Source: Streptomyces sp. AM 2-1-1 (lineage in GTDB: Bacteria; Actinomycetota; Actinomycetes; Streptomycetales; Streptomycetaceae). Taken from it: a stretch of DNA of 64,000 nucleotides. Positions within the stretch are counted from its first letter, which is position 1; each line of letters begins with the position of its first letter. The translations under genes were made by a program, and so were the position numbers. The DNA lies in contig NZ_CP119147.1 of assembly GCF_029167645.1 (NCBI RefSeq), forward strand, positions 2,604,001 through 2,668,000, read 5' to 3'. The notes under the pieces are model-generated. The model was given only the letters and a program-made list of their open reading frames with translations, made no database searches and had not been told where the DNA came from. This document shows positions 1,124 through 30,565 of the stretch, in pieces.

Positions 1124-1135
1124 CTACGCGCGTAG
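1124..1135. promoter_or_regulatory. Candidate nucleoside-regulon operator, site 1
   Basis: A perfect 12-base palindrome, CTACGCGCGTAG, lies 16 bases upstream of the add start and within the divergent gap to the alpha/beta hydrolase. Near-identical copies precede deoA, the ABC ATPase gene and bmpA. The shared position upstream of functionally linked genes supports a repressor site; the regulator is not in this window. Confidence 0.7.
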
Positions 1136-1210
1136 ATCGCCGAGGGACGATACGTAACAGTGACAGTGCGGACAGGTGGAGTACACCCGTGCTTCTGACA
1201 CTGTTCTGTT

Positions 1211-1996
1211 GTGACCACGCGCGCGCTTCCCCTGCCCACTGCCCGGCTCGGGCGGCCCGTACGGGCCGCAGGACCGTCCCCGGAGGTCGGTGGCGTCGTC
1301 CTGCTGCTCCCGGACGGAGCCGTCGAATCCCGCCGCCGGCCCTCCGCCTTCTCGTACGCCGGCCAGCTGCCGTTCGCCCGCGCGCTGGCGCGGGCCGGGC
1401 GGGACGACGGGCTGACCGTGCACGTCCTGCACTACCGCCACCGGGGCTGGAACGCCGGGGACGCCGACCCGGCGGCGGACGCCGGGTGGGCGGCGGACGA
1501 GGTGGTGCGCCGCTACGGCGACGTGCCGGTCTGTCTCGTCGGCCACGGCATGGGCGGCCGGGCGGCGCTGCGCGCCGGGGGGCATCCGGCGGTCGCCGCC
1601 GTACTGGCGATGGCGCCCTGGCTCCCGGGGCAGGCCGGACCTCCCGCCCGGACCGGCCCGGAGGCGTCGGCCGAGCCGGTGAAGCAGCTGGCCGGGCGCC
1701 GGGTGCTCATCGTGCACGGCACCAACGACTCCCACACCGACCCCGAGCTCTCCTTCCGGCTGGCCGCCCGGGCCAAGAAGGCCAACCGGGACACCTGCCG
1801 CTTCGAGGTCCACTCGGACGGTCACGCCCTGCGCGAGCACCGGGCCGAGGTGGTGGCGCTCGCCGCCGACTTCGTCCGGGGCTCGCTCTTCGGCCGCTCC
1901 TACGCCCGGCCGGTCGCCGACGCCCTCGCCGCGCCGCCGCCGCTGGGTCTGCGGATGCCGCTGGCCGCCGGGTTCGGCCGGACGCTGCGGCGCTGA
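1211..1996 (+). CDS. Alpha/beta hydrolase-fold protein lacking the nucleophile serine
   Basis: A 261-residue protein with the alpha/beta hydrolase layout: a strand VVLLL near residue 29, a nucleophile-elbow region CLVGHGMGGRAAL around 108-120, an acid region HGTND, and SDGHALREH, which could hold the catalytic His. At the elbow the usual GxSxG reads G-H-G-M-G, so the nucleophile position (113) is glycine and normal serine-ester chemistry is not expected. It starts at a GTG with no clear ribosome site, perhaps leaderless. It is divergent from add and shares that 103-base gap with the operator palindrome, but a nucleoside role is unproven. It ends tail-to-tail with the DUF2238 gene. A non-enzymatic or unusual hydrolase role is possible. 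Confidence 0.75.
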   Translation: MTTRALPLPTARLGRPVRAAGPSPEVGGVVLLLPDGAVESRRRPSAFSYAGQLPFARALARAGRDDGLTVHVLHYRHRGWNAGDADPAADAGWAADEVVRRYGDVPVCLVGHGMGGRAALRAGGHPAVAAVLAMAPWLPGQAGPPARTGPEASAEPVKQLAGRRVLIVHGTNDSHTDPELSFRLAARAKKANRDTCRFEVHSDGHALREHRAEVVALAADFVRGSLFGRSYARPVADALAAPPPLGLRMPLAAGFGRTLRR

Positions 1997-2078
1997 AGCG
2001 CGTCGCGGAAGACGGCGGCGCCCGCGGCTGCCGCCGGCGCCGCAACGGGCCGGCCGGCCCCTTGCGGAATGCCGGCGC

Positions 2079-2759
2079 TCAGAGCTTCCCGTGCGCCGCG
2101 AGGCGGGTGAGGCTGCGGTCGTGCGCGCGGCTGAGGAGCAGCAGGGAGAAGACGGCGCCGATCAGCGCGCAGAACATGTCCCACTGGGTGTCCCACACGT
2201 CGCCCTGGGTGGCGAGGAACGAGTCGGCGGCCTGTCCGCCGGTGACGGCCGCCAGCCACTCGAGCATCTCGAAGACGGCGCTGAAGGCGAGGCAGGCGCA
2301 CACGACCAGCGGGGGGAGCCAGCGGCTGCCGCGCAGGGGCGAGGTGCGGACGAGGAGTTCCCGGACCAGGATCGCGGGCACGAATCCCTGCATGAGGTGG
2401 CCGAGGCGGTCGTACGGGTTGCGTTCCAGGCCGAGCCGGTCGCGCACCCAGTCACCGGCCGGGACCTCGGCGTACGTGTAGTGCCCGCCCACCATGAGGA
2501 CGAGGGCGTGGACGGCCAGCAGTCCGCAGAGCATCCCGCTCAGCGGGAACCGCCGGCGCAGCAGGAACAGGACCGGCAGCCCCAGCATGACCCACACCGT
2601 CTCCAGTACCCAGGTGCCGGGCTCCTTGGCGCCCAGGGCGGACAGCACGAGCGCCGCGGCGACGGCGGGCGCGAGAACGGCGGGCAGCAGGCGGCCGGTG
2701 CGGCCGGTGGCCGACGGGACACCCGGCGAGAGGCCGTCGGACGGGTGGGTGGCGGACAT
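2079..2759 (-). CDS. DUF2238 (YjdF-like) integral membrane protein
   Basis: A 226-residue polytopic membrane protein with about five or six hydrophobic helices. It has the family pattern NPYDRLGHLMQGFVP followed by FEMLEWLAA and a late QGDVWDTQWDM segment rich in Asp and Trp, typical of YjdF/DUF2238 proteins. The function of this family is unknown. The start at 2759 is chosen because GAGGAG sits six bases upstream of that ATG; an in-frame ATG 33 bases further upstream lacks such a site. It stands alone, convergent with the hydrolase on its left, with about 165 bases before the LysR gene's end on its right. Confidence 0.8.
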   Translation of the reverse strand: MSATHPSDGLSPGVPSATGRTGRLLPAVLAPAVAAALVLSALGAKEPGTWVLETVWVMLGLPVLFLLRRRFPLSGMLCGLLAVHALVLMVGGHYTYAEVPAGDWVRDRLGLERNPYDRLGHLMQGFVPAILVRELLVRTSPLRGSRWLPPLVVCACLAFSAVFEMLEWLAAVTGGQAADSFLATQGDVWDTQWDMFCALIGAVFSLLLLSRAHDRSLTRLAAHGKL

Positions 2760-2924
2760 CAGGAGCTCCTCGTGTCGGGGGTGTACCGCCATCCTCCGGC
2801 GCGCCGCGGGGCCCCGCCTGAGTGCGGCTACTCAACGCCCCCGGGTTTCCTACCTGGTGGCGGATGCGTGGAGCAGCGCCGTGCGACGGTCGGGCAACAC
2901 CGCGGCCGTGGAGCCCGGTTCGGC

Positions 2925-3878
2925 TCAGTCCGGCAGCAGGTGCCCGCGCCGGGAGATCAGGAACTCCTTGAAAGCGGCCACCGGCGGGGTGTCCGGGTGG
3001 CCGTCCAGCCAGGCCACACCGATCTCGCGGGCCGCGCGCGGTGCGGTGACCGTCAGCTCGACGACCCCGGGGCGGGCGACGGCGGGGGGCGGCAGCAGGG
3101 CGACGCCGAGTCCGGCGGCGACCAGACCGCGCAGGGTCTCCGCCTCCTCGCCCTCGAACGCGACCCTGGGCACGAACCCGGCCTCCGCGCAGAGGTCGTC
3201 GGTGATCCGCCGCAGTCCGTACCCCGGCTCCAGGGTCACGAAGGTCTCCTCGGCGGCCTCCGCGAGACGGACCCGGCGGCGGACGGCCAGCCGGTGGTCC
3301 TCGGGGACGACCAGCCGCAGCCGCTGCTCGTCCAGCCGGCGGGCCACCAGATCGGGCGCGTCCGGGACCGGCGAGGTGAGGCAGAGGTCCAGTTTCCCCG
3401 CACGCAGCCGCTCGAGCATCGCCTCGCCGTAGTTCTGCACCAGCTGGAAGCGGACGCCCGGGTGGTCGGCCCGGAAGGCCCGGATGAGGGCGGGTACGGT
3501 CTCCGAGCCCATGGTGTGCAGGAAGCCGAAGGCGACCCTGCCCGAGGCCGGGTCGGCGTCGGCCCGGACGGAGTCGGCGGCCTTCTCCACCTCGGCGAGG
3601 GCGCGTTCGGCGGAGCCGAGGAAGGTGCGTCCGGCGGGGGTGAGCGCCACCGTCCGGCCCCGGCGCGCGAACAGCGCGACGCCCAGGTCCTGTTCGAGGC
3701 GGACCATGGCCCGCGACAGGGTGGACTGGGGCACCCCGAGCTCCTGCGCGGCGCGGGTGACGTGTTCGTGACGGGCCACCGCCTCGAAGTACGCGAGCCT
3801 CGGCGCGAGGACCGCGCGAATGTCTTCTTCGTAACTGCTCGGTGACAGTCGGGGCTGTGAACTGCGGTCATGCGCCAT
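2925..3878 (-). CDS. LysR-family transcriptional regulator
   Basis: A 317-residue LysR-type regulator. An N-terminal winged helix-turn-helix (RLAYFEAVARHEHVTRAAQ then QSTLSRAMVRLEQDLG) is followed by a periplasmic-binding-protein-like effector domain with GRVAFGFLHTMG and a late AAGLGVALLPPPAV strand. The start is the ATG at 3878, giving a normal family length. It is divergent from an MFS transporter gene 62 bases away, the classic arrangement in which a LysR protein controls its neighbour. A short TGC/GCA inverted repeat in the gap fits the T-N11-A rule. The effector cannot be read from sequence. Confidence 0.92.
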   Translation of the reverse strand: MAHDRSSQPRLSPSSYEEDIRAVLAPRLAYFEAVARHEHVTRAAQELGVPQSTLSRAMVRLEQDLGVALFARRGRTVALTPAGRTFLGSAERALAEVEKAADSVRADADPASGRVAFGFLHTMGSETVPALIRAFRADHPGVRFQLVQNYGEAMLERLRAGKLDLCLTSPVPDAPDLVARRLDEQRLRLVVPEDHRLAVRRRVRLAEAAEETFVTLEPGYGLRRITDDLCAEAGFVPRVAFEGEEAETLRGLVAAGLGVALLPPPAVARPGVVELTVTAPRAAREIGVAWLDGHPDTPPVAAFKEFLISRRGHLLPD

Positions 3879-3897
3879 GGGAACGATTATCACCGTT

Positions 3898-3916
3898 TCA
3901 TGCATTGGACGCATCA
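3898..3916. promoter_or_regulatory. Candidate LysR operator between divergent genes
   Basis: The gap between the LysR and MFS genes contains ATGC (3900-3903) and GCAT (3911-3914) as an inverted repeat, within TGCATTGGACGCA, which matches the T-N11-A pattern of LysR sites. It lies 27-43 bases from the MFS start. Short repeats of this kind arise by chance, so this is a position-based suggestion. Confidence 0.35.
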
Positions 3917-3940
3917 GACCCGTCGGCCTACCGTCGCGGT

Positions 3941-5266
3941 ATGCCTCCTGCCAGTACCGGGGCATCCACCGTCGCGGTGGATGCCTTCGCACAGCCCCTC
4001 CCGCACACCCTCGCCACCCCGGCCGCCGTCCCGGCCGACGCACGCCTCGAACCCGGCCGGCCCGGCTACCGCCGCATGAGCTTCGGGCTCTTCGCCGCCG
4101 GGGTCGCGACGTTCGCCCTCCTCTACTCCACCCAGGCCCTGCTGCCCTCGGTCTCCGCGTCCTTCGGCGCCACGGCCGGGCAGGCGAGCTGGACGGTCTC
4201 CGCCGCGACGGGAGCGCTGGCCCTCGCCGTGCTGCCGCTGAGCGCGCTCTCCGAACGCTTCGGCCGACGGCAGATGATGACCGCCTCGCTGGCCCTCGCC
4301 GTGACCCTCGGCATGCTGGTGCCGTTCGCCCCCTCGCTCGGCACGCTGATCGCCCTGCGTGCCCTGCAGGGCGCGGCCCTGGCCGGGCTGCCGGCCTCCG
4401 CGATGGCCTTCCTGGCCGAGGAGGTCCGGCCCAGGGCGCTGGTCGCGGCGATCGGCCTCTTCGTGGCGGGCAACAGCATCGGCGGCATGAGCGGCCGCAT
4501 CCTGACCGGCTGGATCGCCCAGCTCTGGGGCTGGCGGGTCGCGCTCGGCGCGGTCGGCCTCCTCGCGGTGGGATGCGCGGTCGCCTTCCAGTTGCTGATG
4601 CCCAGGGCCCGGCACTTCGTCCCGGGGTCGCTCAACCCGAAGGCACTGGCGCGGGCCGTCGGCGGGCACCTGGCCGATCCGCTGCTGCGCCGGCTCTTCC
4701 TCGTCGGCGGCCTCTTCATGACGGTGTTCGGCGCCGTCTACACCGCCATCGGCTACCGGCTGGTGCAGGCCCCGTTCAGCCTCCCGCAGGGCGTGGTCGG
4801 CTCGATCTTCCTCGTCTACCTCGTGGGCACGGTCTCCTCCGCCGCCGCGGGCCGCCTGGTCGGCCGACTGGGGCGCCGGGGCGCGCTCTACCTCGCCGTC
4901 GCCACCACCGCCGCCGGACTGCTGCTCTCGCTCGCCGACCACCTGGCCGCGGTGCTGCCGGGCCTGGTCCTGATCACCGCCGGCTTCTTCGCCGGCCACG
5001 CCGTCGCCTCCTCCTCGGTGAGCCGTACGGCGACCACCGGCCGCGCCCAGGCGTCGGCGCTCTACCAGTCGGCGTACTACCTCGGCTCCAGCGCGGGCGG
5101 CACGCTCGGCGCGGTCGCCTTCCACGCGGGCGGCTGGACCTGCACGGCCGGGCTCGGACTGCTCGCGGTGGCCGGCGTCGCCATGGTGACGCTGTACGGT
5201 TCGCGGTGCGCACGGGCCGAGCGGGACTCCCGTACGGTACGCGCCTCCGTCGTCGTCGCGCGCTGA
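3941..5266 (+). CDS. MFS transporter, YnfM-like drug/metabolite exporter
   Basis: A 441-residue, 12-helix major facilitator. After about 45 soluble residues the first helix reads FGLFAAGVATFALLYSTQALL. The loop between helices 2 and 3 carries SERFGRRQMM, the MFS signature, and a second copy, GRLVGRLGRRGALY, follows in the C-terminal half. The overall pattern resembles the YnfM/Cmr type of the DHA1 exporters. The start at 3941 is the Met that leaves a short leader; a longer frame upstream would run through the LysR-MFS promoter gap. Probably controlled by the divergent LysR protein. Substrate unknown. Confidence 0.88.
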   Translation: MPPASTGASTVAVDAFAQPLPHTLATPAAVPADARLEPGRPGYRRMSFGLFAAGVATFALLYSTQALLPSVSASFGATAGQASWTVSAATGALALAVLPLSALSERFGRRQMMTASLALAVTLGMLVPFAPSLGTLIALRALQGAALAGLPASAMAFLAEEVRPRALVAAIGLFVAGNSIGGMSGRILTGWIAQLWGWRVALGAVGLLAVGCAVAFQLLMPRARHFVPGSLNPKALARAVGGHLADPLLRRLFLVGGLFMTVFGAVYTAIGYRLVQAPFSLPQGVVGSIFLVYLVGTVSSAAAGRLVGRLGRRGALYLAVATTAAGLLLSLADHLAAVLPGLVLITAGFFAGHAVASSSVSRTATTGRAQASALYQSAYYLGSSAGGTLGAVAFHAGGWTCTAGLGLLAVAGVAMVTLYGSRCARAERDSRTVRASVVVAR

Positions 5267-5383
5267 ACCGGGCGCCCGGAGAACGCCGTTGCCACGAAGA
5301 ACGGTCCGCGCGGGCAACCCCGGGTCCCCTTCGCTCGTCTTGCAGGTGACCAACCCGCAGCAGACGAAGGGGAGTCGGCGTAC

Positions 5384-6154
5384 ATGGACAGCACAGACGC
5401 GTCAGGAACCACAGCGACCAGGAGTACCCCGGGCAGCACGGCCGCACCGGCCGCCCGGCGACGGAGCCGGCTGCGGCGGGCGGGGGTGCTGACGGCCGCG
5501 GGGCTGGTGGCCGCCCCCGCGCTGGTGCTCGCGACGGGAACGGCCGCCGAGGCCGCCTCGTGCACCACGTCCCGGGGGCCGTACCAGAAGCAGGTCGAGA
5601 AGTTCCTCGGGCGGCCGATCGACGGCAAGCAGTCCACCGCCGACTGCGCGGCGACCCAGAAGTTCCAGCGGACGCACGGGATCACGCCCACCATCGGTTA
5701 CGCCGGGCCGCTCACCTGGCGCACGATGAACACCATGCTGGCGCAGAAGGCGGCCGGGAAGAACCCGAACAAGGCGAAGAAGTGCCCCACGAACAAGGGG
5801 CGCATCGCCTGCGTCGACCTCACCCGGCAGCTGAGCTGGATCCAGGACGGGGCGAAGCTGGTGTACGGGCCGGTACCGGTGCGCACCGGCCGCGACGGCG
5901 CGGAGACGCGCACCGGCGCGAAGAAGATCTACTGGCGCCACCTGGAGCACTGGTCGACGCTCTACCACGTCTCGATGCCGTACTCGCAGTTCTTCGACGG
6001 TGGCCAGGCCTTCCACTCGGTCACCAAGTCCATGTGGAACCCGCCGGGATCGGCCGGCTGCGTCAACATGCGCCCCACGGACGCGAAGGCGTACTGGAAG
6101 CTGCTGAGGAACGGCGACGACGTGCACGTGTACGGGCGCAAGCCCGGCACCTGA
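5384..6154 (+). CDS. Secreted L,D-transpeptidase (YkuD domain)
   Basis: A 256-residue exported enzyme that makes 3-3 crosslinks in peptidoglycan or attaches to it. Residues 24-58 form an arginine-rich export signal (ARRRSRLRR, then a hydrophobic run ending AEAA). Residues about 60-118 form a small cysteine-containing peptidoglycan-binding-like region. The YkuD catalytic block is HSVTKSMW at 211-218 and SAGCVNMR at 223-230, with catalytic Cys226 and His211. A GGGGAG ribosome site precedes the ATG. It stands alone between the MFS gene and a sigma factor gene 89 bases downstream. A second, lipoprotein-type L,D-transpeptidase occurs at 26.3 kb. Confidence 0.92.
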   Translation: MDSTDASGTTATRSTPGSTAAPAARRRSRLRRAGVLTAAGLVAAPALVLATGTAAEAASCTTSRGPYQKQVEKFLGRPIDGKQSTADCAATQKFQRTHGITPTIGYAGPLTWRTMNTMLAQKAAGKNPNKAKKCPTNKGRIACVDLTRQLSWIQDGAKLVYGPVPVRTGRDGAETRTGAKKIYWRHLEHWSTLYHVSMPYSQFFDGGQAFHSVTKSMWNPPGSAGCVNMRPTDAKAYWKLLRNGDDVHVYGRKPGT

Positions 6155-6243
6155 GCGGTTGCGCGCTTCCCGCCCGCTTGTCGGTGCGCTGCGGTAGCTT
6201 CCTGACGGCGGACACGGTGCCACGGCGCGACAGGGGTGGAACG

Positions 6244-7266
6244 ATGAGTGATCTCACGACGGCGAAGGACGCGCCCGGGGCGGCGGAGGCCGGGAGCGTC
6301 GAGAGCCGGCTGGAGGGACACCGGGTCGAGCTCACCGGGTACTGCTACCGGATGCTCGGCTCGGCCTTCGAGGCCGAGGACGCGGTCCAGGACACCATGG
6401 TCCGCGCCTGGCGCAACTTCGAGAAGTTCGAGGGGCGTTCGTCGCTGCGCTCGTGGCTGTACCGGATCGCGACCAACGTCTGTCTGGACATGCTGACGGC
6501 GGGCAACAAGCGCGCCCGGCCGGTCGACCTGTCCGGGCCGACCCCGCTCGCGCGGGCGGCGCTCAACCCGCTGCCGGAGAACACCTGGCTGGAACCGATG
6601 CCGGACGGGCGCATCCTCCCGTCACCCACCGACCCGGCCGAGGCGGCCGTGGCGCGCGAGTCGGTGCGCCTCGCCTTCGTGGCGGCTCTCCAGCACCTGC
6701 CGCCCAAGCAGCGGGTGGTGCTGATCCTGCGCGAGGTCCTCGCGTGGAAGGCCGCCGAGGTCGCCGAACTGCTCGACACCTCCGTCGCCTCGGTCAACAG
6801 CGCGCTGCAACGGGCCCGCGCCACCCTGACCGAGGCCGGGGAGCGCGGCCCCGGCCCCGACACCACCGACCCGCTCGACGAGGAACAGCGCAAGCTCCTG
6901 GAGCGGTACGTCGCCGCCTTCGAGGGGTACGACATGAAGGCGCTCACCGCGCTCCTCCACGAGGACGCCGTGATGACCATGCCGCCGTTCGACCTCTGGC
7001 TCCGGGGACACGACGACATCACCGGCTTCATGCTCTCCGTCGGCGCCGCGTGCGCCGGCTCCCGGCTGGTGGCCACCGCCGCCAACGGCACCCCGGCCTT
7101 CGCCCACTACAAGCCGGACCCGGACGGCCCGGGGTTCGTGCCGTGGGCGGTGCAGGTCATCGACATCGAGGACGGCGCCATCAGCGGGATGCACTGCTTC
7201 CTGGACACCCCGCGCTGGTTCCCGCTCTTCGGGCTGCCGGACCGCCTGGACGCCGACGGGAAGTGA
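6244..7266 (+). CDS. ECF sigma factor with C-terminal SnoaL-like domain (SigG/TIGR02960 type)
   Basis: A 340-residue RNA polymerase sigma factor. Region 2 (about residues 25-90) reads YCYRMLGSAFEAEDAVQDT and RSWLYRIATNVCLDML; region 4 (about 140-200) reads LQHLPPKQRVVLILREVL with a helix-turn-helix. The last 120 residues form a SnoaL/NTF2-like domain (YVAAFEGYDMKALTALLHED, then FDLWLRG), the hallmark of the SigG-like group in which this tail replaces a separate anti-sigma factor. The ATG at 6244 has AGGGGTGG just upstream. No anti-sigma gene lies beside it; the next gene, convergent 18 bases away, is a STAS protein. Confidence 0.93.
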   Translation: MSDLTTAKDAPGAAEAGSVESRLEGHRVELTGYCYRMLGSAFEAEDAVQDTMVRAWRNFEKFEGRSSLRSWLYRIATNVCLDMLTAGNKRARPVDLSGPTPLARAALNPLPENTWLEPMPDGRILPSPTDPAEAAVARESVRLAFVAALQHLPPKQRVVLILREVLAWKAAEVAELLDTSVASVNSALQRARATLTEAGERGPGPDTTDPLDEEQRKLLERYVAAFEGYDMKALTALLHEDAVMTMPPFDLWLRGHDDITGFMLSVGAACAGSRLVATAANGTPAFAHYKPDPDGPGFVPWAVQVIDIEDGAISGMHCFLDTPRWFPLFGLPDRLDADGK

Positions 7267-7284
7267 CCGGTCGCCGGAGGGCTC

Positions 7285-7686
7285 TCAGGGCCCGTCGGCG
7301 AACCCCGGCAGATCCATCACGTCCGCCAGCCCCACCAGCTCCAGCAGGGTGCGCAGTTCGGGCGGTACGGCGCACAGCCGCAGGGGCCCGCCGCCCGCCC
7401 GGCGGGCGGTGAGGGAGAGCCGGGCGACCGCCTCCACGGCGGAGAGGTCGGGGCGGACCACTCCGGCCAGGTCGCACGCGGCCGGGGCGGCGGACCGGCC
7501 GGACAGGGCGAGCAGCCGCTCCAGCTCGGCGCAGAGCTCCGGCACCCGGGCGCGGGTGATCCGGCCGGTGACGACGAGGGTCACCGGCGGACCGGTGGCC
7601 GGCGGTGCGCTGCCCGGCGGCTCGGGCGGCGGGCCGCCCGGCGACCGGGGGCTGGGCGGCTGGGTGCTCGGGGGCGTGGCTTCCAC
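7285..7686 (-). CDS. STAS-domain protein (anti-anti-sigma-like)
   Basis: A 133-residue protein: a proline-rich leader of about 34 residues, then a STAS domain (VTLVVTGRITRARVPELCAE, CDLAGV, DLSAVEAVARL, with a late PELRTLLELVGL). Such domains act as anti-sigma-factor antagonists or as parts of lipid-transport systems. The Ser in DLSAV sits where BldG/SpoIIAA-type proteins are phosphorylated. It begins at a GTG (7686) and converges on the ECF sigma gene, but that sigma type is not usually governed by partner switching, so a functional link is doubtful. Confidence 0.75.
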   Translation of the reverse strand: MEATPPSTQPPSPRSPGGPPPEPPGSAPPATGPPVTLVVTGRITRARVPELCAELERLLALSGRSAAPAACDLAGVVRPDLSAVEAVARLSLTARRAGGGPLRLCAVPPELRTLLELVGLADVMDLPGFADGP

Positions 7687-7746
7687 ACCGGATGAGACCG
7701 TGCCCCGTCCCGTAACTCATCGGTGGCGGCGCTTCCCGTACGCGCC

Positions 7747-7796
7747 CGGCACGGGCCGGCCGGCCCGGATCGCTCCGTGCCGCCCGGCCCGTGCCG
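7747..7796 (-). terminator. Hairpin downstream of deoA
   Basis: A 13-base perfect inverted repeat (CGGCACGGGCCGG at 7747-7759 with its complement at 7784-7796) lies 8 bases past the deoA stop. The loop is long (24 bases) and there is no T run, as is usual for actinomycete terminators. Confidence 0.5.
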
Positions 7797-7803
7797 TACG
7801 GCG

Positions 7804-9081
7804 TTACGCGATGCGTCCGCGCACCACCGGGGGCGCGGTGAAGCCGGTGCCGGCCGGGGCGATGTCCCAGGCGGCGGGCAGGGCGTCGAGGGCGTAGGAG
7901 AACTTCTCCGAGGTGTCCGTGTGGAGGGTGAGCAGCGGCTGGCCCTCGGTGACGGTGTCGCCGGGCTTGGCGTGCAGTTCGACGCCGGCCCCCGCCTGCA
8001 CCGCGTCCTCCTTGCGGGCCCGGCCCGCGCCGAGGCGCCAGGCGGCGACGCCGATGTCGTAGGCGTCCAGCCGGGTCAGCACGCCGGAGGAGGGTGCGGT
8101 GAGGACGTGCCGCTCGCGGGCGACCGGGAGTTCCGCGTCCGGGTCGCCGCCCTGGGCGGAGATCATGCGGCGCCAGACGTCCATCGCGGAGCCGTCGGCG
8201 AGCGCCTTGCGGGGATCGGCGTCCTTGAGGCCCGCCGCGTCCAGCATCTCGCGGGCGAGCGCCAGGGTGAGGTCGACGACGTCCTTCGGGCCGCCGCCGG
8301 CGAGCACCTCGACGGACTCCCGCACCTCCAGGGCGTTGCCCGCGGTGAGGCCGAGCGGGGTGGACATGTCGGTGAGCAGGGCGACCGTGCGCACTCCGCT
8401 GTCGGTGCCGAGGGCGACCATGGTGGAGGCGAGTTCGCGGGCGTCCTCGATCGTCTTCATGAACGCGCCGCTGCCGACCTTGACGTCGAGGACGAGCGCG
8501 CCGGTGCCCTCGGCGATCTTCTTGGACATGATCGAGCTGGCGATCAGCGGGATCGCCTCGACGGTGCCGGTGACGTCGCGGAGCGCGTAGAGCTTCTTGT
8601 CGGCGGGGGCGAGACCGTCCCCGGCGGCGCAGATGACGGCGCCGGTGGTGTCGAGGACGCTCAGCATCTCCTCGGTGGAGAGGTGGGCCCGCCAGCCGGG
8701 GATGGACTCCAGCTTGTCGAGGGTGCCGCCGGTGTGGCCGAGGCCCCGGCCGCTGAGCTGCGGGACGGCCGCGCCGCAGGCGGCGACGAGCGGGGCGAGC
8801 GGCAGGGTGATCTTGTCGCCGACCCCGCCGGTGGAGTGCTTGTCGGTGGTGGGGCGGGAGAGCGCGGCGAAGTCCATCCGCTCACCGGAGGCGATCATCG
8901 CGGCGGTCCAGCGGGCGATCTCCGCGCGGTTCATGCCGTTCAGCAGGATCGCCATGGCCAGGGCGGACATCTGCTCGTCCGCGACCTCGCCGCGGGTGTA
9001 CGCGTCGATGACCCAGTCGATCTGTGCGGGGGTCAGTTCGCCGCGGTCCCGCTTGGTGCGGATGACGGAGATGACGTCCAT
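7804..9081 (-). CDS. deoA: Thymidine phosphorylase
   Basis: Cytosolic enzyme that splits thymidine (and deoxyuridine) with phosphate to the base and 2-deoxyribose-1-phosphate. It is 425 residues long, normal for the family, with the phosphate/nucleoside signature KHSTGGVGDK at 81-90, the glycine-rich SGRGLGHTGGTLDKLES and DVKVGSGAFMK. The ATG at 9081 follows GGAAGG. It is separated from cdd by a strong hairpin and has its own copy of the shared palindrome 72-87 bases upstream, so it is a separate transcription unit of the same probable regulon. The family's pyrimidine-nucleoside phosphorylase form is nearly identical in motif, so a broader substrate range is possible. Confidence 0.96.
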   Translation of the reverse strand: MDVISVIRTKRDRGELTPAQIDWVIDAYTRGEVADEQMSALAMAILLNGMNRAEIARWTAAMIASGERMDFAALSRPTTDKHSTGGVGDKITLPLAPLVAACGAAVPQLSGRGLGHTGGTLDKLESIPGWRAHLSTEEMLSVLDTTGAVICAAGDGLAPADKKLYALRDVTGTVEAIPLIASSIMSKKIAEGTGALVLDVKVGSGAFMKTIEDARELASTMVALGTDSGVRTVALLTDMSTPLGLTAGNALEVRESVEVLAGGGPKDVVDLTLALAREMLDAAGLKDADPRKALADGSAMDVWRRMISAQGGDPDAELPVARERHVLTAPSSGVLTRLDAYDIGVAAWRLGAGRARKEDAVQAGAGVELHAKPGDTVTEGQPLLTLHTDTSEKFSYALDALPAAWDIAPAGTGFTAPPVVRGRIA

Positions 9082-9152
9082 GGGATTCCTTCCGGCAGGT
9101 GAGCTCGGTCGTGAGGTTCGGGTCGCGCCGGCCGTGGGGCGGACGCGCCCGA

Positions 9153-9168
9153 CTCTACGCGCATAGAG
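9153..9168. promoter_or_regulatory. Candidate nucleoside-regulon operator, site 2
   Basis: CTCTACGCGCATAGAG is a 16-base near-palindrome with one mismatched pair; its core matches CTACGCGCGTAG at 11 of 12 positions. It lies between the cdd terminator hairpin and the deoA start, where a deoA promoter must be. Confidence 0.7.
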
Positions 9169-9178
9169 GTGGCATGAG

Positions 9179-9213
9179 GAGATGGCCCTCCCGACGTGCG
9201 GGAGGGCCATCTC
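9179..9213 (-). terminator. Strong terminator after the nucleoside ABC-cdd operon
   Basis: A perfect 15-bp stem (9179-9193 with 9199-9213) and a five-base loop ACGTG begin 9 bases past the cdd stop. It isolates deoA from the upstream operon. Confidence 0.85.
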
Positions 9214-9221
9214 GGAGGCGG

Positions 9222-9620
9222 TCAGGCCAGGTGCTGCGGCCCGAAGGCCTGCGGCAGCATCTCGGCGAGGGTGCGCAGCCCGTCCGGGGTCTCCAGGACG
9301 AGGTCCGGGCCCCCGAACTCGTACAGCAGCTGGCGGCAGCGGCCGCACGGCACCAGGATCTCGCCGGCCCCGTCCACGCAGGTGAAGTGGGTGAGCCGGC
9401 CGCCGCCGGTGGCCGCGAGTGCGGAGACCAGCCCGCACTCGGCGCAGAGGCCGATGCCGTACGAGGCGTTCTCGACGTTGCAGCCGGCGACGGTGCGGCC
9501 GTCGTCGACCAGGGCGGCGGCGCCGACCGGGTAGGCGGAGTACGGGGCGTACGCCCGGGACATCGCCTCCCGGGCCGCCTTCCGCAGCCCTTCCCAGTCG
9601 GGCACCACCGGGGTAGTCAC
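9222..9620 (-). CDS. cdd: Cytidine deaminase
   Basis: Zinc enzyme converting cytidine and deoxycytidine to the uridine forms. At 132 residues it is the short, tetrameric type. Motifs: CNVENASYG (substrate-binding NxEN), LCAEC with the zinc Cys59 and catalytic Glu61, and PCGRCRQ at 91-97 with zinc ligands Cys92 and Cys95. The GTG start at 9620 overlaps the stop of the permease gene by 4 bases (GTGA), so the two are translationally coupled. It is the last gene of the ATPase-permease-permease-cdd operon, tying uptake directly to breakdown. Confidence 0.97.
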   Translation of the reverse strand: MTTPVVPDWEGLRKAAREAMSRAYAPYSAYPVGAAALVDDGRTVAGCNVENASYGIGLCAECGLVSALAATGGGRLTHFTCVDGAGEILVPCGRCRQLLYEFGGPDLVLETPDGLRTLAEMLPQAFGPQHLA

Positions 9621-10885
9621 GACCCCTGGCCCTTGAAGTACGGCACGCCGTCGGCCTTCGGCATCCGCAGCCGCTGCGCGGAGAGCGCGAGGACCAGCAG
9701 GGTCGCCACGTACGGGGCGGCGTCCACGAACTGGCTGGGCACCTCGTCGGTCAGCGCGTACCAGACGAAGAGCGCGGCGGAGAAGACGGCGGAGACGGCC
9801 GCGCCGACCCAACGGCGCCGGACGAGCTGCCAGACCACCGCGGCGACCAGCAGGATCGCCAGGAAGAGCAGCACCGCGTGGACGTTCTCGGCGCCACCGC
9901 GCAGCTTCAGGCTGTCGGTGAAGCCGAAGAGGCCGGCGCCGAGCGCCATGCCGCCGGGCATCCAGTTGCCGAAGATCATCGCGGCGAGACCGATGTAACC
10001 GCGGCCGCCGGTCTGGCCCTCCTGGTAGATGCCGGTGGAGACGATCGCGAGGAAGGCGCCCGCGAGGCCGGCGAGAGCGCCCGAGACGGCGACGGCGATG
10101 TACTTGTACGTGTAGACGTTGACGCCGAGCGACTCGGCGGCCACCGGGTTCTCACCGCAGGAGCGGAGCCGCAGCCCGAAGGCGGTGCGCCAGAGCACCC
10201 ACCAGGTGGCGGGGATCAGCGCGATCGCCACCACGGTCAGCAGCGAGAGGTGGGTGACCACACCGCCGATGATGCCCGCGAGGTCGGAGACGAAGAACCA
10301 GTGGTGGGCCTGGAGGTCGGCCATCCAGTCCGAGAGCCCGGGGACCGTGATGTCGGTGATCTCGCCGATGCGGGGGGACTGCTTGGAGGAGCCGCCCTCC
10401 GCCTCGGCGAAGGTGTAGTTCGACAGGTAGCGGGTGACGCCCACGGCGAGGATGTTGATCGCCACACCGGAGACGATGTGGTTGACCTTGAACGTCACGG
10501 TCATCACGGCGTGCAGCAGGCCCCCGAGGGCGCCGCCCACGATGCCCATCAGGACGCCGGTCCACGGGCCCCACTGGTAGCCGGCCCAGGCGCCGAACCA
10601 GGTGCCGAGGATCATCATGCCTTCGAGGCCGATGTTGACGACACCGGCGCGTTCGGCCCACAGGCCGCCGAGTCCGGCGAGGCCGATCGGGACGGCGAGC
10701 TGGAGCGCGCCGGACACCTGGCCGATGGAGGTCAGGTCGTTCGCCCCGCTGATCACGCGGGTCAGCGAGAACAGCGCCAGACCGGCCGCGGCGATCAAGA
10801 GGACGACCGGCAGGCTCAGCCTGCGCCGGCCGCCGCCCTTCCCGGGCGCGGTGGTGGCGGTGGACGTCGTCGGGACGGTGCTCAT
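9617..10885 (-). CDS. Nucleoside ABC transporter permease (second subunit)
   Basis: A 422-residue inner-membrane permease of the BPD_transp_2 family with about ten helices. The motif GLAGLGGLWAERAGVVNIGLEGMMILGTW is the hallmark of BmpA-linked nucleoside permeases; VNHIVSGVAINILAVGVTRYLSN and GENPVAAESLGVNVYTYKY follow. It starts at ATG 10885, overlapping the preceding permease stop by 4 bases, and its own stop overlaps cdd. It pairs with the 370-residue permease, the double-NBD ATPase and the BmpA-type lipoprotein. Nucleoside specificity is inferred from cdd, deoA and add nearby. Confidence 0.93.
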   Translation of the reverse strand: MSTVPTTSTATTAPGKGGGRRRLSLPVVLLIAAAGLALFSLTRVISGANDLTSIGQVSGALQLAVPIGLAGLGGLWAERAGVVNIGLEGMMILGTWFGAWAGYQWGPWTGVLMGIVGGALGGLLHAVMTVTFKVNHIVSGVAINILAVGVTRYLSNYTFAEAEGGSSKQSPRIGEITDITVPGLSDWMADLQAHHWFFVSDLAGIIGGVVTHLSLLTVVAIALIPATWWVLWRTAFGLRLRSCGENPVAAESLGVNVYTYKYIAVAVSGALAGLAGAFLAIVSTGIYQEGQTGGRGYIGLAAMIFGNWMPGGMALGAGLFGFTDSLKLRGGAENVHAVLLFLAILLVAAVVWQLVRRRWVGAAVSAVFSAALFVWYALTDEVPSQFVDAAPYVATLLVLALSAQRLRMPKADGVPYFKGQGS

Positions 10886-11994
10886 GCCGCTGCTCCCTCA
10901 CGGTTCTCGCGGGCCTGGGCGGCGAGTTCCTCGCCGACCTTCTGCTGCTGTCGGCGGAGCCCGTACTGGCGGACAAGTTCGTAGGAGACGACGACGGAGA
11001 TCACGATCAGTCCCTGCATGATCATGGCGATTTCCTGCGGGTACCCGTACTGGTCCAGGGAGGCCGAGGTCTTCTCCAGGAACGACATCAGCAGGGCCGC
11101 GAAGAACATGCCGACCGGGTTGTTGCGGCCCAGCAGGGCGACGGTGATGCCCATGAAGCCGACCCCGGCGGGGAAGCTGAGGTTGTAGGTGTGGCTCTGG
11201 CCGAGCAGGATCGGCATGCCGACCAGACCGGCGACCGCGCCGGAGATCAGCATGGCCGTCAGCACCATCTTCTTGGCGTCCACACCGCTGGCCCGGGCGG
11301 CGCTCTCGCTGGCACCGGTGGCGCGCAGGTCGAAGCCGAAGCGGGTGCGGCCCAGCGTGAACCAGTAGACGACGCCGAGGGCGAAGGCGACGAAGGTGAA
11401 GCCGTAGATCGTGCCGCCGTCACCGGCGTCCAGGCCGGGGAACCAGCCGGAGGAGGCGATCTCGCCGGTGTTGAGGTCGTTGGAGCCGGTCGGCTGGACG
11501 CCGAAGTTGTCCGTCAGGATCAGCCAGGCGATCAGGCTGGTCGCGATGGCGTTCAGCATGATCGTGGAGACGACCTCGCTGACGCCCCGCATCATCTTGA
11601 GCACACCGGCGATGCCGGACCAGAAGGCGCCGACCGCCATGGCGGTGATCAGGATCAGCAGGATGTGCAGCGGTCCGGGCAGGGTCACCGAGGCGCCGAC
11701 GACGGCGGCCACCATCGCGGCGAGCCGGTACTGCCCGTCGACACCGATGTTGAACAGGTTCATCCGGAACCCGATCGCGACGGCGAGCGCGGCGAGGTAG
11801 TAGGTGCCGGTCTGGTTGACGATCAGCACCTGTACGTCGACGTACTCGGCGTTCTCGAACATCAGCCGGAACGGCTCGAAGGGGCTGTTGCCGGAGAGCA
11901 GCAGCACCACCGCGGTGAGCAGGAACGCCACCACCAGGGCGAGCGCCGGACCGGCGACGCCCAGGAGCAGCCGGTCCCTGTCGAACTTCTTCAT
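10882..11994 (-). CDS. Nucleoside ABC transporter permease (first subunit)
   Basis: A 370-residue permease of the same family as its neighbour but from the other paralogue group. It has about nine helices, an AIGFRMNLFNIGVDGQYRLA motif, and GVSEVVSTIMLNAIATSLIAW. The ATG at 11994 overlaps the ATPase gene stop by 4 bases, and the end overlaps the next permease by 4, so all of the operon is coupled. With its partner it would form the heterodimeric channel in the cytoplasmic membrane. Confidence 0.93.
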   Translation of the reverse strand: MKKFDRDRLLLGVAGPALALVVAFLLTAVVLLLSGNSPFEPFRLMFENAEYVDVQVLIVNQTGTYYLAALAVAIGFRMNLFNIGVDGQYRLAAMVAAVVGASVTLPGPLHILLILITAMAVGAFWSGIAGVLKMMRGVSEVVSTIMLNAIATSLIAWLILTDNFGVQPTGSNDLNTGEIASSGWFPGLDAGDGGTIYGFTFVAFALGVVYWFTLGRTRFGFDLRATGASESAARASGVDAKKMVLTAMLISGAVAGLVGMPILLGQSHTYNLSFPAGVGFMGITVALLGRNNPVGMFFAALLMSFLEKTSASLDQYGYPQEIAMIMQGLIVISVVVSYELVRQYGLRRQQQKVGEELAAQARENREGAAA

Positions 11995-13568
11995 CGGCTC
12001 TCACCGTTCTCGTCGTGCGCGATGGTGTCGTCGTGCGCGATGTGGCCGGAGGCCGCGCCGGTCATGGCGGTGCCCAGCTCCTCCGGCGTGATGCTCGCGG
12101 GGTCGGCGTCCGCGACCAGGCGGCCGCGGTACATGACGCGCAGCGTGTCGGACAGGCCGATCAGTTCGTCCAGGTCGGCCGAGATGAGGAGCACCGCGAG
12201 GCCCTCGCGGCGCGCCTCGCGGATCTGGTCCCAGATCTGCGCCTGCGCGCCCACGTCCACGCCCCGGGTGGGGTGCGCGGCGATGAGCAGCTTCGGCTTG
12301 TGGCTCATCTCGCGGCCGACGATCAGCTTCTGCTGGTTGCCGCCGGAGAGCGAGGCCGCGGTGACGTCGATACCGGGGGTACGGACGTCGTACTCGCGCA
12401 CGATCCGCTCGGTGTCGGTGCGGGCCGCCTTCAGGTCGAGGAAGACGCCCCGGCTGTTGGGCTTCTCGGTGACGTGGCCGAGGATGCGGTTCTCCCAGAG
12501 CGGGGATTCCAGCAGCAGGCCGTGGCGGTGCCGGTCCTCGGGGATGACGCCGAGGCCGCCTTCGCGGCGCTTGCGGGTCGAGGCGTGCGAGATGTCCGCG
12601 CCGTCCAGGGTGATGGTGCCGCCGTCGGGGTCGCGCAGACCGGTGAGCGCCTCGATCAGTTCGCTCTGGCCGTTGCCCTCGACGCCGGCGATGCCGAGGA
12701 CCTCACCCTTGTGGATGGTGAAGCCGATGTCGTCGAGGACCTCGCGGACCAGGCCGTCGGAGTCGGTCGCGGTGAGCCGCAGTGCGTCGACGGTGAGCAT
12801 GGGCACGTCGGTGACGGTCGACTCGCGGGTCTCCGGCGAGGGCAGCTCGCTGCCGACCATCAGCTCGGCGAGCTGCTTGGTGGTGGCGGTGCGCGGGTCG
12901 GCGGTGCCGACGGTGGTGCCCCGGCGGATGACGGTGATCTCGTCGGCCACGGAGAGCACCTCGCCGAGCTTGTGCGAGATGAAGATGACGGTCAGGCCCT
13001 CGGCCTTGAGCTCCCGGAGGTTGTCGAAGAGCGCGTCGACCTCCTGGGGGACGAGGACCGCGGTGGGCTCGTCGAGGATGAGGGTGCGGGCGCCGCGGTA
13101 GAGGACCTTGAGGATCTCCACGCGCTGCCGGTCGGCGACGCCGAGCTCCTCGACGAGGACGTCGGGGCGGACGCCGAGCCCGTACGCGTCGGAGATCTCC
13201 AGGATCTTGCTCCGGGCCGCGCCGCCGATGCCGTGCAGCTTCTCCGCGCCGAGGACGACGTTCTCCAGTACGGAGAGGTTGTCGGCGAGCATGAAGTGCT
13301 GGTGGACCATGCCCACCCCGCGCGCGATGGCGTCGGCGGGGCCGGCGAAGGTGACGGTCTCCCCGTCCACCGCGATGGTGCCCTCGTCCGGCTTCTGCAT
13401 GCCGTACAGGATCTTCATCAGGGTCGACTTGCCGGCGCCGTTCTCGCCGATGAGCGCGTGGACGGTGCCCTTGGCGACGGTGATGTCGATGTCGTGGTTG
13501 GCGACGACGCCGGGGAAGCGCTTGGTGATGCCGCGGATTTCTACGGCAGGAGGGCTGGACGCGGTGAT
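11991..13568 (-). CDS. Nucleoside ABC transporter ATPase (two NBDs), apparent ATC start
   Basis: A fused double ATPase of about 525 residues, normal for the RbsA/BmpB-like group. The first Walker A, GENGAGKST, is at about 41-49, with Walker B LILDEPTAVL; the second half carries LSGGNQQKL and LLIAAHPTRGVDVG. The protein must begin before Walker A, yet the frame has no ATG, GTG or TTG there: the first ATG (13418) falls just after it. An AAGGAG site sits 8 bases upstream of an ATC codon at 13568-13566, where homologous proteins start, so I set the start there. A frame error in the sequence is the alternative. The gene is separated from bmpA by a hairpin and has its own palindrome 102-113 bases upstream. 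Confidence 0.9.
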   Translation of the reverse strand: MTASSPPAVEIRGITKRFPGVVANHDIDITVAKGTVHALIGENGAGKSTLMKILYGMQKPDEGTIAVDGETVTFAGPADAIARGVGMVHQHFMLADNLSVLENVVLGAEKLHGIGGAARSKILEISDAYGLGVRPDVLVEELGVADRQRVEILKVLYRGARTLILDEPTAVLVPQEVDALFDNLRELKAEGLTVIFISHKLGEVLSVADEITVIRRGTTVGTADPRTATTKQLAELMVGSELPSPETRESTVTDVPMLTVDALRLTATDSDGLVREVLDDIGFTIHKGEVLGIAGVEGNGQSELIEALTGLRDPDGGTITLDGADISHASTRKRREGGLGVIPEDRHRHGLLLESPLWENRILGHVTEKPNSRGVFLDLKAARTDTERIVREYDVRTPGIDVTAASLSGGNQQKLIVGREMSHKPKLLIAAHPTRGVDVGAQAQIWDQIREARREGLAVLLISADLDELIGLSDTLRVMYRGRLVADADPASITPEELGTAMTGAASGHIAHDDTIAHDENGESR

Positions 13569-13582
13569 GACGCACTCTCCTT
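13566..13582 (-). promoter_or_regulatory. Ribosome site pointing to an ATC start codon
   Basis: AAGGAG at 13582-13577 is followed, 8 bases on, by ATC at 13568-13566, in frame with the ATPase. A GTG one base after the ribosome site is in another frame that does not encode the ATPase. AUC/AUU starts are rare but known in bacteria (infC, pcnB). Confidence 0.5.
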
Positions 13583-13669
13583 GGCGGGAAAGGAGCGGAG
13601 CACGGCCGACCGGGTTGACGGGGCCGTACCAGCAGGGGCCGGGGCGAAGCTACCGCGCCCGAGGGTGCT

Positions 13670-13681
13670 CTACACGCGTAG
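13670..13681. promoter_or_regulatory. Candidate nucleoside-regulon operator, site 3
   Basis: CTACACGCGTAG matches the consensus palindrome at 11 of 12 positions and lies about 100 bases upstream of the ATPase start, after the hairpin that ends bmpA transcription. It marks a probable internal promoter for the transporter operon. Confidence 0.65.
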
Positions 13682-13804
13682 CGTTGCCGAATAGAAAGAT
13701 CCGGACGGCGGAACGCGATCCGGGCCGGGGAGGCGGCGGTGTGCCGTTCCCCCCGGTCCCGGAATCATAGGGTTCCGCGTCCGGGTACGTACGACCGCGT
13801 CCGC

Positions 13805-13830
13805 GGGGGCGGCGCCGGGCGCCGGCCCCC
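13805..13830 (-). terminator. Hairpin between bmpA and the ABC ATPase gene
   Basis: Starting 13 bases past the bmpA stop, GGGGGC/GCCCCC and GGCGC/GCGCC arms form an 11-bp stem with one bulged G and a three-base loop. It probably stops most bmpA transcripts, giving more binding protein than membrane components. Confidence 0.6.
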
Positions 13831-13843
13831 GGGGACGGGGTGG

Positions 13844-14911
13844 TTACGGGGCGGTCTTGACGGTGATCGTGCCGGCGATGATGTCGGCCTTCGCCTTCTC
13901 GATCGCGGCGGTGACGTCCTTCATGCCGGTGAAGGCGGGGTTGGAGGTCGCCAGGCCGACGCCGTCCGTGGCCAGGCCGGCGCGGATCTCGCCGGACTGG
14001 GGCTTGCCGTCCTTGACCGACTTGATCAGGTTGAAGACCGAGTCGGCGACGTCCTTGGTGACCGACGTCAGGATGTGGTCCTTGTAGTCGGCGAGGCCGG
14101 CCTGGTTGTACTGGTCGGAGTCGACGCCGATGGCCCACTTGTTCGCCTTGGCGGTGACCTCGATGGCACCGGAGCCCGCGAGACCGGCGGCCGAGTAGAT
14201 CACGTCGGCGCCCGCGTCGAGCTGGCCCTGCGCGGCGGCCTTGCCGAGGTCGGGCTTGGAGAAGCCCGTGAAGTCCGGCGGCTGCGTCAGGTACTGGACC
14301 TTGACGTTGACGCCGGCCTTGGTGTCCTTGACGCCCTGGACGTAACCGGCCTCGAACTTCTTGATCAGCGGGGTCTCGACACCACCGATGAAGCCGACCG
14401 TGTTGGTCTTGGTGACCTTGGCGGCGGCGACGCCGGCCAGGTAGGAGCCCTGCTCCTCGTTGAACACCAGGTTGGCGGTGTTCTTCGTGGGCTTCGAGCT
14501 GTCGTCGATGATGCCGAACGTGGTGTCCGGGAACTTCGCGGCGACCTCGGCGATGGCGCTGGCGTAGACGAAGCCGACGCCGATGACCGGGTTGTTGCCG
14601 CCGCGCGCGAGCTCCGTCAGGCGCTGGATCTTGTCCGCGTCGCTCTCGCCCTCGGAGGGCTCCGCCTCGACCCCCTTGAAGCCGAGCTCCTTCGAGGCCT
14701 TCTCCAGGCCCGCGTAGGCGGCGTCGTTGAACGACTGGTCGCCGCGGCCACCGATGTCGTAGGCGAGGGCGGCCTTGCCGCTGGAGGACGAGCTGCTGCT
14801 GCTGCTGTCGCTGCTGCCCTCGGAGGAGGTCTTACCGCCACAAGCCGTGACGGAGAGCGCGAAAGCCGCGGACGCGATGCCCACGGTGGCGATCCTGGTG
14901 ATCCGGCGCAC
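13844..14911 (-). CDS. bmpA: BmpA-type nucleoside-binding lipoprotein
   Basis: The 355-residue extracytoplasmic binding protein of the nucleoside ABC transporter. The signal peptide ends in a lipobox, LSVTAC, with lipidated Cys24, then a serine-rich linker (about residues 33-45) and the Bmp/PBP1-like domain beginning ALAYDIGGRGDQSFNDAA, a typical start for this family. The GTG start at 14911 has AAGGAG seven bases upstream; a longer frame to 15007 lacks a site and would bury the signal. It sits upstream of the ATPase-permease operon, with a terminator hairpin between, and has a degenerate copy of the shared palindrome about 62 bases before its start. Confidence 0.94.
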   Translation of the reverse strand: MRRITRIATVGIASAAFALSVTACGGKTSSEGSSDSSSSSSSSSGKAALAYDIGGRGDQSFNDAAYAGLEKASKELGFKGVEAEPSEGESDADKIQRLTELARGGNNPVIGVGFVYASAIAEVAAKFPDTTFGIIDDSSKPTKNTANLVFNEEQGSYLAGVAAAKVTKTNTVGFIGGVETPLIKKFEAGYVQGVKDTKAGVNVKVQYLTQPPDFTGFSKPDLGKAAAQGQLDAGADVIYSAAGLAGSGAIEVTAKANKWAIGVDSDQYNQAGLADYKDHILTSVTKDVADSVFNLIKSVKDGKPQSGEIRAGLATDGVGLATSNPAFTGMKDVTAAIEKAKADIIAGTITVKTAP

Positions 14912-14972
14912 TGGGAGGCTCCTTAAAAACCTGACCGAAAGCGCCACTCCGGCGCTGGGTTCGCGGCGATCG

Positions 14973-14984
14973 TAACGCGCGTAG
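14973..14984. promoter_or_regulatory. Candidate nucleoside-regulon operator, site 4
   Basis: TAACGCGCGTAG matches the consensus CTACGCGCGTAG at 10 of 12 positions (the right half is intact) and lies 62-73 bases upstream of bmpA. It is weaker than the other three but correctly placed. Confidence 0.5.
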
Positions 14985-30515: not shown

Positions 30516-30565
30516 CACTATTGCATGGGCCGCCTACGAGCGGAGTTCTGTGAGGAGTCGCTCAG

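Follow-up and report, generated by a model that had tools for sequence, protein, structure and literature searches.

A palindrome conserved at nucleoside gene promoters of the Streptomycetaceae: a probable shared operator for nucleic-acid scavenging

We analyzed a 64-kb window of the Streptomyces sp. AM 2-1-1 chromosome (G000:C1:2604001-2668000 of a 7.2-Mb genome) that carries genes for the deamination, phosphorolysis and import of nucleosides (Table 1). A sequence-only reading of the window had placed a 12-base-pair (bp) palindrome, CTACGCGCGTAG, before add, deoA, the ATPase gene of a nucleoside-type ABC transporter and bmpA, and had proposed that it serves one repressor controlling all of these functions. 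All four sites were recovered at exactly these positions. Here we describe the distribution of the palindrome in this genome and its relatives, and consider what may bind it.

Table 1. Palindrome sites and nucleoside genes in the window (nt, nucleotides).
Feature	Position	Strand	Remarks
Operator-like palindrome CTACGCGCGTAG	1124..1135		0 mismatches; 16 nt before add start codon
add, adenosine deaminase	1..1107	-	PF00962; start at 1107; runs past left window end
deoA, thymidine/pyrimidine-nucleoside phosphorylase	7804..9081	-	NCBIfam NF004490, above cut-off
Operator-like palindrome CTACGCGCATAG (gene strand CTATGCGCGTAG)	9155..9166		1 mismatch; between cdd and deoA, 73 nt before deoA start codon
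cdd, cytidine deaminase	9222..9620	-	PF00383
Nucleoside-type ABC transporter permease	9617..10885	-	B6/BMP-type permease families, below cut-off; 4-nt overlap with cdd
Nucleoside-type ABC transporter permease	10882..11994	-	Family match below cut-off
Nucleoside-type ABC transporter ATPase	11991..13568	-	Start probably the ATC codon at 13568
Operator-like palindrome CTACACGCGTAG (gene strand CTACGCGTGTAG)	13670..13681		1 mismatch; ~101 nt before ATPase start
bmpA, PnrA/Bmp-type nucleoside-binding lipoprotein of ABC transporter	13844..14911	-	PF02608
Variant site TAACGCGCGTAG (gene strand CTACGCGCGTTA)	14973..14984		2 mismatches; 61 nt before bmpA start

Within the window, the palindrome was matched five times at up to two mismatches, the fifth match being at 30534, compared to 4.30 matches expected, and five were reached in 44 of 100 shuffles. 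At up to one mismatch there were three matches versus 0.21 expected, a number reached in none of 100 shuffles, and the form CTANNCGNNTAG occurred three times (0.17 expected). Thus, the view that the recurrence is hard to explain by chance did not hold for the two-mismatch count, which is at background, but did hold for the one-mismatch count and for the conservation described below. Likewise, the motif is confined to these promoters in the window, save for the match at 30534, but not in the genome, where 17 matches were found at one mismatch.

Perfect copies of CTACGCGCGTAG occur three times in the genome, each directly 5' of a nucleoside gene, namely the purine nucleoside phosphorylase (PNP) gene, deoC and add. 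The two copies outside the window lie ~14 and 10 kb before its start. One (L016:6129) is located 24 nt before the PNP gene, which is followed by a PGM/PMM-family mutase gene; the other (L016:9637) is located 13 nt before deoC, downstream of which are two aldehyde dehydrogenase genes. Ten of the 17 one-mismatch sites precede recognised targets: PNP, deoC, add, deoA, the ABC ATPase gene, genes for a deoxyribonuclease (DNase), a 5'-nucleotidase-family protein, a permease and a GH25 muramidase, and purSQL. The DNase (P0001) combines LTD and Exo_endo_phos domains and is probably secreted, judging by the look of its N-terminus. The permease is of the xanthine/uracil (nucleobase) family, the GH25 gene is divergent from a MarR gene, and purSQL is divergent from an Lsr2-like gene. 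The form CTANNCGNNTAG was found nine times in the genome, as compared to 59 times for the reversed control. Seven of these copies precede the DNase, PNP, deoC, add, deoA, ABC ATPase and purSQL genes, and the other two lie at C1:336108, with no recognised target, and C1:6232704, at an Lrp/AsnC-type gene. Across six genomes, CTANNCGNNTAG occurred 6-9 times per genome, with controls at 59-106. TACGCGCGTA had six sites in the own genome, one of them at C1:6288393.

The palindrome is conserved throughout the family. Perfect copies were present in 61 of 61 genomes of the genus (2-6 copies each) and in 100 of 101 genomes of the family, representing 16 of 17 genera. In a class-wide sample of 148 genomes, perfect copies were found in all 11 Streptomyces, as against 5 of the 137 others. 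Inspection of the seven copies in these five genomes led us to reject them as true sites and to take them as chance: two lie inside called reading frames (L094, L096) and one in coding-like sequence with no frame called (L098), one is in a simple GC repeat (L092), one is inside an inverted repeat (L095), and two have no recognised target downstream (L093, L097). G214, the one genome of the family in which no perfect copy was found, carries CTACTCGCGTAG before deoC, and no site within one mismatch was found upstream of its PNP gene. In eight other Streptomyces, a perfect copy precedes PNP, deoC and add in every case, and it precedes the ABC ATPase gene in all four comparators whose ATPase upstream region was fetched. 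Among ten genomes of nine other genera, sites with at most one mismatch were found before deoC in 10 of 10, PNP in 9 of 10 and add in 7 of 7 fetched upstream regions. A scan of named genomes for CTACNCGNGTAGATATGNT yielded at least 120 stretches. Among the best 80 listed, 77 were labelled Streptomyces, Kitasatospora or Streptacidiphilus, and three were metagenome-assembled genomes of other labels with none of the searched genes. In 70 of these 80 the site was 13-55 nt before deoC (exactly 13 nt in 60), in four deoC was slightly further off, and in three the stretch ended before deoC.

To count sites by gene, we took the best site within ~260 nt of each gene, using unique upstream regions only. 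For add, 24 of 25 regions had a perfect copy and one a one-mismatch site; for PNP the numbers were 25 and 4 of 30, and for deoC 13 and 8 of 21. The ABC ATPase gene had 10 perfect and 2 one-mismatch sites in 21 regions, some true sites, including that of the window, being just past the search distance. The weak bmpA site proved real, as a two-mismatch site was present in 20 of 21 regions; it read CTACGCGCGTTA in all 14 rows printed, and the consensus of 17 was also CTACGCGCGTTA. No comparison gene had a site within two mismatches (PMM, 0 of 28; first aldehyde dehydrogenase, 0 of 21; AccA2, 0 of 15).

The scattered targets beyond the nucleoside cluster were compared between the own genome, G056, G191 and G170 (the latter at 5 of 21 one-mismatch sites). 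Sites of the same variant were found before the same genes in two to four genomes. The 5'-nucleotidase-family gene had a site in four genomes, always CTACGCGCGTTG, and the nucleobase permease gene also in four, always CTACGCGCGGAG. The DNase site was shared by two genomes and the GH25 site by three, in three variants. The purSQL site was found in three genomes and in four of five further genus genomes, the fifth being typed at part of its sites. Some sites occurred in the comparators only: one-mismatch sites before a carbon-nitrogen hydrolase gene in two genomes, and a site before a metallophosphoesterase gene in three genomes and a fourth (L280), with a pyruvate kinase gene adjoining in two of the first three. 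From gene order, we tentatively take the metallophosphoesterase to be of the SCO2015 type. SCO2015 is described as a 'putative secreted nucleotidase' and, together with the adenosine deaminase SCO5662, was higher in an argR mutant, according to the part of that study consulted (PMC3293853). Further add-like genes also carry the site (L118, L030 and, judged by eye, L194), and in L040 a perfect copy was found 13 nt upstream of the matched part of a GH25 relative.

The same site thus lies at promoters of functionally linked but physically unlinked genes and is kept in relatives. Very probably, CTACGCGCGTAG and its variants represent the shared operator of one regulator for a nucleic-acid scavenging regulon. 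Site position and conservation lend good support to the proposed common operator for import, deamination and phosphorolysis, and the putative regulon is wider than proposed, extending to PNP/deoD, deoC, the DNase, the 5'-nucleotidase-family protein, the nucleobase permease, purSQL and often GH25.

Several observations weigh against this interpretation. Genome-wide, the 17 one-mismatch sites compare with 29 for the reversed control pattern, so that the raw number of sites is no argument. Seven of the 17 are not at recognised targets; those at L005, L011 and L015 are in probable coding sequence or have nothing recognised downstream, the L009 site is ~140 nt before a GDSL-lipase reading frame, and the remaining three (L014, L178, L274) are described below. 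A one-mismatch site was present in just 4 of 14 unique deoA upstream regions, and none of the four ABC ATPase genes outside Streptomyces whose upstream region was fetched (G208, G215, G218, G219) had a site within one mismatch. Since bmpA carries CTACGCGCGTTA in two of these genomes (G208, locus L266; G215, locus L264), the transporter operon there is read through bmpA or otherwise. The counts by gene are not unbiased, the loci having mostly been fetched via the motif or the cluster; the perfect-copy scan of 101 family genomes is the unbiased sample. Finally, no regulator has been tied to the site. The sequence-only reading had suggested scanning the genome and relatives for hits before nucleoside genes; the place of the sites and their conservation bore this test out, but their one-mismatch count did not. 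Recurrence by chance in GC-rich DNA would account for that count and for the two-mismatch count in the window. It does not account for the excess at one mismatch in the window, and it is already refuted by the family-wide conservation at the same promoters; we give it virtually no weight.

Additional sites were noted at genes of other kinds. The L014 site GTACGCGCGTAG precedes the probable TTG start of rpoB by ~35-40 nt and is identical in four of four genomes (L014, L164, L188, L201); it is not separable from a conserved leader, because the directly adjoining 3' sequence is conserved to the same degree. The one-mismatch site at L178 coincides in part with the first codons of a gene whose product is probably secreted and carries a GmrSD C-terminal (HNH-type nuclease) domain. 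This site is present in three genomes (L178, L167, L185) and may be due to chance or mark a further target. The site CTACGCGGGTAG at G000:C1:6232704 (L274), ~105 nt 5' of the Lrp/AsnC-type regulator gene, which is followed by an amidohydrolase-like gene, was found in the own genome only. In two genomes (L042; L117 of G159), perfect palindromes precede a frame identified as HAD-like phosphatase by the look of its N-terminus; this frame adjoins genes for a small XRE-type regulator and a methionine-aminopeptidase-like protein.

The position of the sites relative to the promoter bears on how they act. The consensus of the -10 element is TAnnnT. On the gene strand, such an element follows the site after a gap of 12 nt at PNP, 4 nt at add (TAGAGT) and 1 nt at deoC, and the bmpA site overlaps a -10-like TACGAT, the end of the palindrome becoming TTAcgaT. 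The start codons are only 13 nt (deoC) and 16 nt (add) past the site, suggesting that both genes are probably leaderless or nearly so and that the site acts as DNA. An RNA hairpin was considered and rejected: there is no room for a loop in a 12-bp palindrome, and the deoC and add sites are upstream of the probable transcription start. Since the spacing to the -10-like element varies and the site sits on the core promoter, we infer that the regulator is a repressor rather than an activator of fixed geometry. Of the single repressor originally proposed, the shared operator is well supported, while repression is deduced from site position. Alternatively, the element might define a promoter class, recognised by a sigma factor or a WhiB-type co-activator such as WblC. 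Consistent with this, -10-like elements lie next to the site, the deoC promoter shows hardly any variation as far as the start codon, and the promoter of SCO4914 (deoC) is listed as a WblC-repressed target in the part of the source consulted (PMC7157823). However, the symmetry of the palindrome and its variable distance from the -10-like element speak against a promoter class, and we consider this explanation improbable. Note that positions A3 and G7 were invariant in 145 sites, and that both this and the symmetry are partly circular, as the sites were chosen within two mismatches of the consensus.

If CTACGCGCGTAG is an operator, the question is which protein binds it. Among the regulator genes examined, none had a conserved site at its own promoter that was independent of an adjacent target gene. 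The best positional candidate is a gene for a DeoR-family protein (PF00455 and PF08220; L016:2607-3803, minus strand), ~2.4 kb before the PNP gene, which might sense (deoxy)ribose phosphate. In E. coli, DeoR controls deoC, deoD and deoA. The candidate gene is conserved with the targets: it was found in all 11 genus genomes in the class-wide sample (92-100%) and in 20 of 20 family genomes from 16 genera (82-92%), and it adjoined PNP/Lpd wherever the cluster was read. Its DNA-binding domain, like the motif, is nearly invariant in the family. However, an operator at its own promoter, which is usual but not obligatory, was not found (0 of 47 unique upstream regions within two mismatches, relatives outside the family included), and this promoter conserves another element. 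Relatives outside the family (58-71% identity) share the recognition-helix core SEVTVRRD, but their loci show no site at up to one mismatch, and both neighbourhoods typed are for sugar use (G113, sugar-binding protein and arabinofuranosidase; G104, aldose-1-epimerase). The conserved neighbourhood may also reflect general synteny. The sequence-only reading had looked to a LacI-, DeoR- or GntR-type regulator gene carrying the site; a DeoR gene is indeed beside the cluster, but its promoter lacks the site, and LacI autoregulation found no support at the 30 LacI loci examined. We regard this DeoR protein as a possible, though not the favoured, regulator.

We judged the cluster DeoR to be the counterpart of SCO4920 of S. 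coelicolor, from its family and its neighbour SCO4919 rather than from an alignment. SCO4920 is a putative DeoR-family regulator known from network inference and from the gene list of a carbon-repression study, and the relevant passages of both sources mention no such site (PMC3224704, PMC4848846); SCO4919 is lpd3 in the portion of the source consulted (PMC3431225). DeoR relatives in other families (L082, L079 and others) lie beside arabinofuranosidase, sugar ABC transporter and aldose-1-epimerase genes and have other conserved promoter elements. The TetR-type neighbour (L016:1728-2516) was rejected as a candidate, as tblastn, applied to the cluster only, found no counterpart of it there in four of eight Streptomyces comparators.

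The MarR protein encoded divergently from GH25 was another candidate, with a one-mismatch site in the intergenic region at 19 of 30 MarR loci. However, the site goes with GH25: it was present at 19 of 25 loci with GH25 and at none of five with no GH25 match in the fetched stretch. Moreover, close MarR counterparts are lacking in G293 (best E 1.7e-17), which has four perfect copies, and in G207 (9.8e-20), which has sites before add, PNP and deoC. The site thus neither stays with the MarR promoter nor requires the presence of MarR, and this candidate is largely refuted; we consider it most unlikely. The alternative we lean towards is an unlinked factor that is not autoregulated, or is autoregulated differently. 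MarR is the only classical regulator gene next to shared one-mismatch sites in the own genome, G056, G191 and G170, and there the site follows GH25. Furthermore, a site within two mismatches was absent from all LacI loci examined (30 of the 33 found), autoregulation again not being obligatory. This is an argument from absence, drawn from one-mismatch genome scans that covered G170 at 5 of 21 sites and from a survey that left out GntR, TetR at large, XRE, IclR and other families.

We propose that one dimeric DNA-binding regulator, common to the Streptomycetaceae, would use CTACGCGCGTAG as its operator, with conserved variants including CTACGCGCGTTA, CTACGCGCGTTG, CTACGCGCGGAG and CTACCCGCGTAG. 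The predicted regulon would comprise digestion (the probably secreted DNase, the 5'-nucleotidase-family protein and a second phosphatase, the last in some genomes), uptake (the BmpA-type nucleoside ABC transporter and the nucleobase permease) and catabolism (cdd/deoA, add, PNP-phosphomutase and deoC-aldehyde dehydrogenases), together with the purSQL operon and the GH25 muramidase, the latter in part of the genomes. The repressor would keep RNA polymerase off these promoters and be released when a nucleoside or pentose-phosphate product is present. The inclusion of purSQL among the targets suggests that the ligand reports purine or pentose-phosphate status, not one nucleoside.

Streptomyces development involves the lysis of part of the organism's own mycelium. 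To our knowledge, the recovery of nucleic acid after mycelial lysis, and its regulation, are little understood. A factor with operator CTACGCGCGTAG might serve to recycle the dead, jointly inducing a secreted DNase, nucleotidases, a cell-wall muramidase, the uptake of nucleosides and nucleobases, and the whole of nucleoside catabolism while adjusting purSQL; we hold the arguments for and against this to be evenly balanced. If it is true, lysed mycelium or neighbours would be turned into carbon, nitrogen and phosphate. In a passage discussing the lysis of part of the population, the adenosine deaminase SCO4901 and putative nucleases are reported to be more abundant together in strain 'SC' than in 'SL' (PMC7244524). 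Reading 'SC' as S. coelicolor and 'SL' as S. lividans, this passage, as far as it was available, fits a scavenging regulon. A strict 12-bp operator conserved family-wide provides a direct handle for finding the protein and mapping the regulon.

The transporter ATPase gene has an unusual start. From the preceding stop as far as the Walker A region there is no in-frame ATG, GTG or TTG, and a ribosome-binding sequence, AGGAG, is located 8 nt 5' of the ATC codon (window 13568, minus strand). AGGAG with a non-canonical codon was found in 13 of 15 unique ATPase upstream regions printed (12 ATC, 1 ATA), at loci including the window, L008, L104, L106, L111, L114, L180, L286 and others. Because this arrangement is so widely shared, the nucleoside ABC ATPase likely uses a conserved non-canonical start codon.

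Control of nucleoside transport is also the role of NupR of Bacillus thuringiensis, a nucleoside permease regulator of the GntR/HutC family (PMC9430930). NupR belongs to a different bacterial phylum and regulator family. A nucleoside regulon is a known kind of thing. In the literature searched, which left most subscription journals outside its scope, we found neither a description of this operator motif, although a prior one is possible, nor a Streptomyces nucleoside regulator. The DeoR/CytR system of E. coli (deoCABD and nucleoside uptake) likewise places phosphorylases, deoC, deaminases and uptake under common regulation, and a DeoR-family gene is nearby in the present case as well. In contrast to E. 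coli, the operator in the Streptomycetaceae is a different one, DeoR is a candidate, and purSQL, the DNase, the 5'-nucleotidase-family protein and GH25 share the site.

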